This document shows, in pieces, positions 52,607-52,809 of a stretch of DNA of 54,210 nt. Every line of letters starts with the position of its first letter. Position 1 is the first letter of the stretch. The notes under the pieces were generated by a model that searched no databases, had not been told where the DNA came from, and saw only the letters and a program-made list of their open reading frames with translations. Origin of the DNA: an uncultured Brachyspira sp. (GTDB lineage: Bacteria; Spirochaetota; Brachyspiria; Brachyspirales; Brachyspiraceae); the NCBI RefSeq assembly GCF_944390595.1, contig NZ_CALXRN010000189.1, positions 1 to 54,210 of the forward strand. The letters are read 5' to 3'. Both the position numbers and the translations under genes were made by a program.

Positions 52607-52786
52607 ATGAGATTTAATGTTTGAGTAAACAATTCATATTGCGGTGCAATTAGTAATCTTTTTGTTAATAATTTATTTAATAAAATAGGGTTTTATAATA
52701 TGCATATATTAGGTCGTTTAGTAGTTAAATCTTTAATTTCTTCTGGGTTAATTTTTGTAAATAAGAGTGATAGATATATTGCATAA
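52607..52786 (+). other. 60-codon frame with in-frame TGA (possible selenocysteine leader peptide)
   Basis: A small frame in the place where trxA normally lies. ATG 52607 has AAGGAAG 8 nt upstream. The frame reads MRFNV, TGA (52622-52624), then VNNSYCGAISNLFVNNL and on without another stop for 53 codons to TAA at 52784-52786. If the TGA is read as selenocysteine the product is a 59-residue peptide, not similar to thioredoxin or any family I know. A SECIS-like hairpin lies right after the TGA. The final codons lie inside the terminator before grdE. It could be a selenoprotein, a regulatory leader, or a chance frame. Confidence 0.35.
52638..52650 (+). promoter_or_regulatory. SECIS-like hairpin downstream of the in-frame TGA
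   Basis: ATTGC (52638-52642), loop GGT (52643-52645), GCAAT (52646-52650): a perfect 5-bp stem with a GGU loop. The GGU begins 18 nt after the TGA, the same distance I recall for the E. coli fdhF SECIS, and falls in the range given for bacterial SECIS loops. The lower stem is weak. Its position in a selenoprotein operon adds weight; 5 bp in AT-rich DNA reduces it. Confidence 0.35.
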
Positions 52787-52809
52787 TATATTTATCACTC
52801 TTTTTTTTG
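52763..52809 (+). terminator. strong intrinsic terminator / possible attenuator before grdE
   Basis: An 18-bp stem (52763-52780 with 52785-52802, one G-T pair), 4-nt loop and a run of eight T residues with TGTTTG following. It ends grdX-trxB transcription, yet the rest of the grd operon lies only 60 nt downstream on the same strand. The stop codon of the small TGA-containing frame lies within the hairpin (52784-52786). Confidence 0.88.

Follow-up and report, generated by a model that had tools for sequence, protein, structure and literature searches.

The trxB-grdE leader

The DNA analysed here (the window) is a stretch of 54,210 nucleotides (nt) from an uncultured Brachyspira sp. (contig NZ_CALXRN010000189.1), which ends within a glycine reductase (grd) operon. 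This work concerns the gap of 323 nt between trxB and grdE. It contains a leader composed of a ribosome binding site, a short reading frame with an in-frame UGA, a hairpin of the selenocysteine insertion sequence (SECIS) type, and an intrinsic terminator (Table 1). An earlier reading of the sequence alone (the sequence-only reading) had taken this leader for a possible attenuator that senses selenocysteine (Sec). The features on which it was built, namely the ribosome binding site, the ATG, the TGA as codon 6, the GGT hairpin, the TAA and the terminator, are each present as it described them.

Table 1. Coordinates of genes, leader features and candidate structures around the trxB-grdE gap of the window
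Feature	Position	Strand	Remarks
grdX, upstream operon gene	51168-51554	+	NCBIfam GrdX NF038093, E 2e-35, above cut-off
trxB, thioredoxin reductase, directly 5' of the leader	51580-52539	+	NCBIfam TIGR01292, above cut-off
Likely leader promoter	52552-52579	+	TTGCAT (52552-52557), 16 nt, TATATT (52574-52579); read from sequence
Ribosome binding site AGGAAG	52595-52600	+	6 nt 5' of the leader ATG; from sequence
Leader frame	52607-52786	+	open frame; ATG 52607, TAA 52784-52786; 59 codons if UGA is Sec
Possible long-range helix, 5' strand	52608-52626	+	start codon to UGA; pairs with 52716-52734
In-frame UGA, codon 6	52622-52624	+	predicted Sec codon; invariant in 12/12 leaders
SECIS apical hairpin TTGC-GGT-GCAA (TTGCGGTGCAA)	52639-52649	+	loop 18 nt past UGA; core and spacing as in grdB
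Possible long-range helix, 3' strand	52716-52734	+	pairs with 52608-52626
Intrinsic terminator	52763-52802	+	hairpin includes the leader stop codon; only terminator-like site in 50000-54210
grdE-type gene, first behind the terminator	52863-54149	+	best NCBIfam match NF040793, below its cut-off

A genome search with the window region retrieved homologous trxB-grdE loci from 13 Brachyspira genomes, and the leader is present at 12 of these loci (L001, in the window, to L012). In the window, its frame begins ATG AGA TTT AAT GTT TGA GTA AAC AAT TCA TAT TGC GGT GCA and stays open for 53 further codons after the UGA. The predicted product is MRFNVUVNNSYCGAISNLFVNNLFNKIGFYNMHILGRLVVKSLISSGLIFVNKSDRYIA, where U stands for UGA read as Sec. 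Judged by its hexamers, TTGCAT-16-TATATT is the likely promoter of the leader. The block to which it belongs, AATGTTATATTT or near variants of it, is kept in L001-L007, with TTGACA as the -35 element and unchanged 16-nt spacing in L005-L007. The block is absent from L008-L011, where the leader begins 27-41 nt past trxB.

By its best NCBIfam match, the product of grdE is of the type of component B alpha/beta of glycine/sarcosine/betaine reductase. In the relatives, the selenoprotein genes grdA and grdB are found downstream of grdE, and the UGA of grdA is present in all 11 relatives that have this gene. The selenoprotein genes of the operon lie outside the window because the contig ends just after grdE, with the start of the next gene (54150-54210), which is grdA in the relatives. 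A PF04723 search of the window's assembly gave no match.

A SECIS element in common with grdB

The 12 leader sequences can be aligned without gaps from 12 nt upstream to 33 nt downstream of the UGA. Within this region, the UGA, the G that follows it, and the motif TTGC-G..-GCAAT (core TTGC-GNN-GCAA) are invariant, so that the conservation of the TGA across Brachyspira is as the sequence-only reading anticipated. The distance from the UGA to the loop is 18 nt in every leader, including the otherwise divergent L012. The same distance separates UGA and loop in E. coli fdhF.

The pattern TGA-N14-TTGCGNNGCAA has 32 matches in 26 Brachyspira genomes, of which 12 are the leaders and 20 are Sec codons of grdB; a control search with the reversed pattern gave 0 matches. 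All 20 grdB sites directly abut matches to PF07355 (GrdB), and those that were translated (9/20) read ...T-S-T-U-G-T-C-T-R-C-G-A-T-M, the selenocysteine site of GrdB. As the signature is limited in the genus to the leader and the grdB Sec codons, the leader carries a grdB-type SECIS. By this comparison, it shares the SelB recognition core and its spacing with a genuine selenoprotein that is encoded in its own operon.

The machinery for Sec insertion is available. SelB was found in every Brachyspira genome searched, and SelA and tRNA-Sec scored above cut-off in 25 of 26. Brachyspira genomes without grd (e.g. G002, G008 and G012) also retain SelA, SelB and tRNA-Sec, and should therefore have other selenoproteins. 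The window's assembly contains two different tRNA-Sec genes above cut-off (G000:C124 and G000:C134, 61.0 and 51.7 bits), possibly a sign of contamination (estimated at 6.8%).

An open frame that runs into a terminator

In all 12 species, the leader frame is free of stop codons between the UGA and the terminator, as expected for a conserved open frame, whereas the other two frames have 1-8 stops each. For the window alone, the chance probability of an open frame is about 0.03, and dinucleotide shuffles give probabilities of 0.02-0.20 per sequence. The product over five lineages is about 5e-6, which is a rough figure, the lineages being related. In the codons past the SECIS, the ratio of amino-acid-changing to silent substitution rates (dN/dS) in close pairs is 0.5-5.7, with most values near 1, while the grdE genes of these pairs give 0.03-0.09. 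The leader codons of L001 and L002 differ by 10 amino-acid-changing and 0 silent changes. The distances from UGA to terminator are 138, 138, 141, 126, 126, 126 and four times 117 nt, with 127 and 83 nt as exceptions; they are a multiple of three in 10 of 12 cases, and shifts are mostly by whole codons. A dN/dS near 1 together with the lack of stops points to selection for openness or translation, and not for a peptide. Judged from these patterns of substitution, the translatability of the leader matters and the sequence of the peptide does not.

The terminator of the window has a folding free energy of about -20 kcal/mol with its flanks (z -6.9), and none of 200 shuffles was equally good. A hairpin of the same kind is found at all 12 leader loci. 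The TAA of the window sits in the loop or 3' side of the hairpin, and the placement of the stop codon inside the hairpin, on which the sequence-only reading had laid weight, is shared by six species. In the other six, it does not hold, and the frame runs on beyond the terminator and ends 13-65 nt after the U-run begins. The overlap of frame and terminator is kept in 12/12 loci. Since the stop lies in or beyond the hairpin in every species, a ribosome on the frame must occupy the terminator. Relatives that have lost the frame or the TGA and kept the terminator, which would have spoken against the attenuator, were looked for and not seen. Despite their weak statistics in the window alone, neither the SECIS hairpin nor the open frame is due to chance, since UGA, open frame, terminator and a spacing of 18 nt to the loop are all conserved at 12 of 13 loci.

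No conserved partner for the 5' arm of the terminator emerged from partition-function folding, whether or not a ribosome was placed at the UGA. An attenuator of the trp type is not supported, as no mutually exclusive antiterminator pairing is consistent across species.

Proposed mechanism

We infer that Sec is inserted at the UGA, that the ribosome then masks the terminator, and that the operon responds to selenium in this way. With a probability of about 0.75, the leader is a selenocysteine-gated transcription attenuator. As no conserved antiterminator was found, a pyrBI-like model, in which the ribosome masks the terminator, describes it best. A ribosome would start on the leader frame and encounter the UGA at codon 6. 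If SelB with Sec-tRNA(Sec) is available, the SECIS hairpin would permit Sec insertion and the ribosome would continue. It would then enter or cross the terminator as RNA polymerase makes it, block the hairpin, and allow transcription into grdE-grdA-grdB. When Sec-tRNA runs short, translation would be ended by release factor at codon 6, with about 140 nt still to go to the hairpin. Without an advancing ribosome, the terminator would fold, and the selenoprotein operon would be off. As read from the sequences, the leader probably turns on a selenium-demanding pathway only when selenium is available. The sequence-only reading had predicted that the TGA, the hairpin, the frame and the terminator overlap would be conserved, and the comparison bears it out in these respects; the Sec machinery and the grdB-type SECIS are additions to its case.

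Several points weigh against this interpretation. Bacteria insert Sec slowly and with low efficiency, so that RNA polymerase, if it does not pause, could get ahead of the ribosome; the weak step of the mechanism is a kinetic one. The SECIS hairpin is weak on energy alone and not significant in single sequences; in the window, its folding energy is not notable (z 0.1 to 0.6). With respect to the GGT hairpin, for which conservation had been predicted, the hairpin and its 18-nt spacing hold in 12/12 leaders, but the loop is GTT in L008-L011 (G006, G001, G018 and G014). The grdB codons that were found in G001, G014 and G018 keep GGT despite the GTT of the leader. If the SECIS is of the E. coli type, a GTT loop would weaken SelB binding. 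Such a loop may make the sensor weaker and more demanding. Furthermore, genome G009 has the operon and the grdA UGA without the leader, which must therefore be dispensable. Finally, the leader of G006 (L008) is intact, although grdA and grdB were not found there. The grdE gene of G006 runs past its normal end, and this genome apparently has a decaying glycine reductase operon.

Alternative explanations

The leader could be a true small selenoprotein gene, which ends at its own terminator and makes a functional peptide, with grdE transcribed from a separate promoter. A conserved UGA, a SECIS and an open frame would be equally expected in this case, and promoter-like hexamers (TTATCA-18-TATAAT, 52792-52821) are present downstream. 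However, such sites occur at chance level (25 found versus 27 expected), and no conserved promoter-like site 3' of the terminator was seen in the comparison of leader loci. The peptide had no Pfam match at E<0.05, and the conservation of its Cys-Gly-Ala follows from the SECIS core. In view of the unconstrained amino acids past the SECIS, and of widely differing frame ends, some within the terminator and others up to 65 nt past it, this explanation is unlikely.

A translation-coupled attenuator could also sense the general efficiency of translation or of release factor, or a cue borne by a helix, with Sec being incidental. The mechanics, in which a ribosome masks the terminator, would be identical, and a partly conserved helix between the start-to-UGA region and a distal element suggests a second input. 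The SECIS core identical to that of grdB, and the position right before a selenoprotein operon, favour Sec as the signal and make a general sensor quite improbable.

Slightly less probable still is regulation by SECIS-bound SelB itself, which would affect translation or the stability of the RNA, with no Sec being inserted. The leader has a grdB-type SelB site, and its start codon and UGA can sit in a long-range helix. Such a regulator could do without a UGA placed in frame at the precise distance for decoding, and without a frame open through the terminator, yet 12/12 leaders keep both, and the variants with a GTT loop also retain the open frame. That the leader is a non-functional remnant, such as a duplicated scrap of grdB beside an ordinary terminator, is hardly credible: the leader does resemble grdB around the UGA, but it has a single origin, and 12 species retain the UGA, the spacing, the frame and the terminator despite divergence at most other sites.

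Relation to known systems

The closest parallel for a selenocysteine-gated attenuator is the E. coli pyrBI operon with its pyrL leader, where a closely coupled ribosome prevents formation of the terminator hairpin, so that masking is known to work (PMC5021804, PMC4824070). As in pyrBI, an intrinsic terminator lies inside or overlaps the leader frame, and no antiterminator is needed. In all 12 Brachyspira loci, the operon is preceded by an intrinsic terminator that a leader frame with start signals overlaps, and the dN/dS near 1 without stops agrees with a pyrBI-type leader, in which translation matters and the peptide is unimportant. The gates are different: it is UTP-dependent pausing of the polymerase in pyrBI, and predicted to be Sec recoding of the codon-6 UGA in Brachyspira. 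The likeness to the trp and his leaders is that translation of a leader peptide conveys to a terminator how well a single tRNA is charged. In those leaders, scarcity stalls the ribosome, favours the antiterminator and turns the operon on, whereas in the proposed Brachyspira mechanism, scarcity would release the ribosome, let the terminator form and turn the operon off.

As in the fdhF and grdB genes, a UGA is followed by a small GGU hairpin at 18 nt, with the core found in the grdB of the same operon. In-frame UGA and SelB-type hairpin at decoding distance are found together in 12/12 leaders, with the loop GTT in 4/12. Unlike these elements, the one in the leader is part of a regulatory region and not of an enzyme gene. 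A SECIS-like element before E. coli selAB has reportedly been proposed as a SelB-linked regulator (Thanbichler and Boeck 2002, cited in PMC8124441). Selenium-linked control in a 5' leader by a SelB-binding RNA would be common to both, whereas the selAB element acts on translation and is not known to have a decoded UGA or a terminator. An element of the selAB type, without a decoded UGA, is ruled against in Brachyspira by the strictly kept UGA and the open frame.

The genome paper on B. pilosicoli describes the operon in B. pilosicoli and B. murdochii, and the passages found in it mention no leader (PMC2897892). A search of the open-access literature found no case of Sec-dependent attenuation. 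Each of the two parts, attenuation by a ribosome and the recoding of UGA as Sec, is known, but their combination in one switch has no precedent in the literature searched. It is likely that the leader is the first attenuator known to be switched by recoding, in which Sec insertion at a leader UGA gates a selenoprotein operon, and that it evolved once in Brachyspira, where a duplicate of the operon's grdB SECIS may have been its source.

How bacteria match selenoprotein expression to selenium supply is little understood. If the proposal is correct, the leader reads the supply of Sec-tRNA directly and without a dedicated regulator protein, which would be an answer for one pathway. The sense of the attenuation would be opposite to that in trp, with abundant charged tRNA turning the operon on. 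The leader would also offer a clean, natural readout of UGA recoding, and the predictions are simple enough for reporter assays.

Distribution and origin of the leader

GTDB genomes provided 80 grdE loci, three of which belong to leader-bearing Brachyspira; the other 77 have no leader before grdE, and their gaps are mostly shorter than 110 nt. In a scan of 83 grdE loci for a UGA, a GG-hairpin and an overlapping terminator, three Brachyspira leaders matched, while the remaining ones fail its strict terminator or loop criteria. The scan had two other TGA matches and two TAG control matches, and as these are equal in number, the former are background. A search for the signature in 393 genomes of the phylum gave a few extra matches outside grdB and the leader, and no further leader among the matches examined. 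A Treponema leader was considered and dismissed, as the five matches examined (four from T. denticola-like genomes and one other) are antisense to or inside ordinary genes and thus due to chance. No meaningful match was obtained in an Rfam covariance-model search, and no similarity in a search of a phage collection.

In the GrdE tree, the leader-bearing species are found on one branch (88/92), with the leaderless G009 and two other Spirochaetota outside. A single branch indicates one gain, and by this phylogeny the leader arose once, inside Brachyspira. It has the UGAG and the 11-base SECIS core in common with grdB, and 21 of 31 bases around the UGA match in L004 (hand count), which hints that it was derived from grdB.

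The window's assembly contains further grdE/grdB-like clusters with UGA codons of their own, on G000:C235 (L029) and G000:C35. The grdE copy on G000:C235 has no such leader upstream.

A possible long-range helix

The region from the start codon to the UGA may pair with a distal element that lies 7-35 nt 5' of the terminator and reads TCAGGGATTAAA in L005-L011, TCAGGTATTGGA in L004 and GTTAAATCTTT in L001-L003. This possible helix, of uncertain role, is weak in the window (z -0.8) and clearer in L003-L006 (z -2.6 to -4.0). In an alignment of seven sequences, 87% of cells are paired, and the covariation exceeds that in 496 of 500 shuffles and in slid controls. Only two pairs change on both sides, and as the compensatory changes are few and the sequences related, we treat the helix as a secondary feature only. 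One may speculate that it prevents ribosomes from starting anew on completed leader RNAs, which would save Sec-tRNA.

The window (L001) and G022 (L003) have nearly identical grdE genes (dS 0.07), and the neighbouring leaders are strongly diverged. This contrast suggests recombination, with a breakpoint near the start of grdE.
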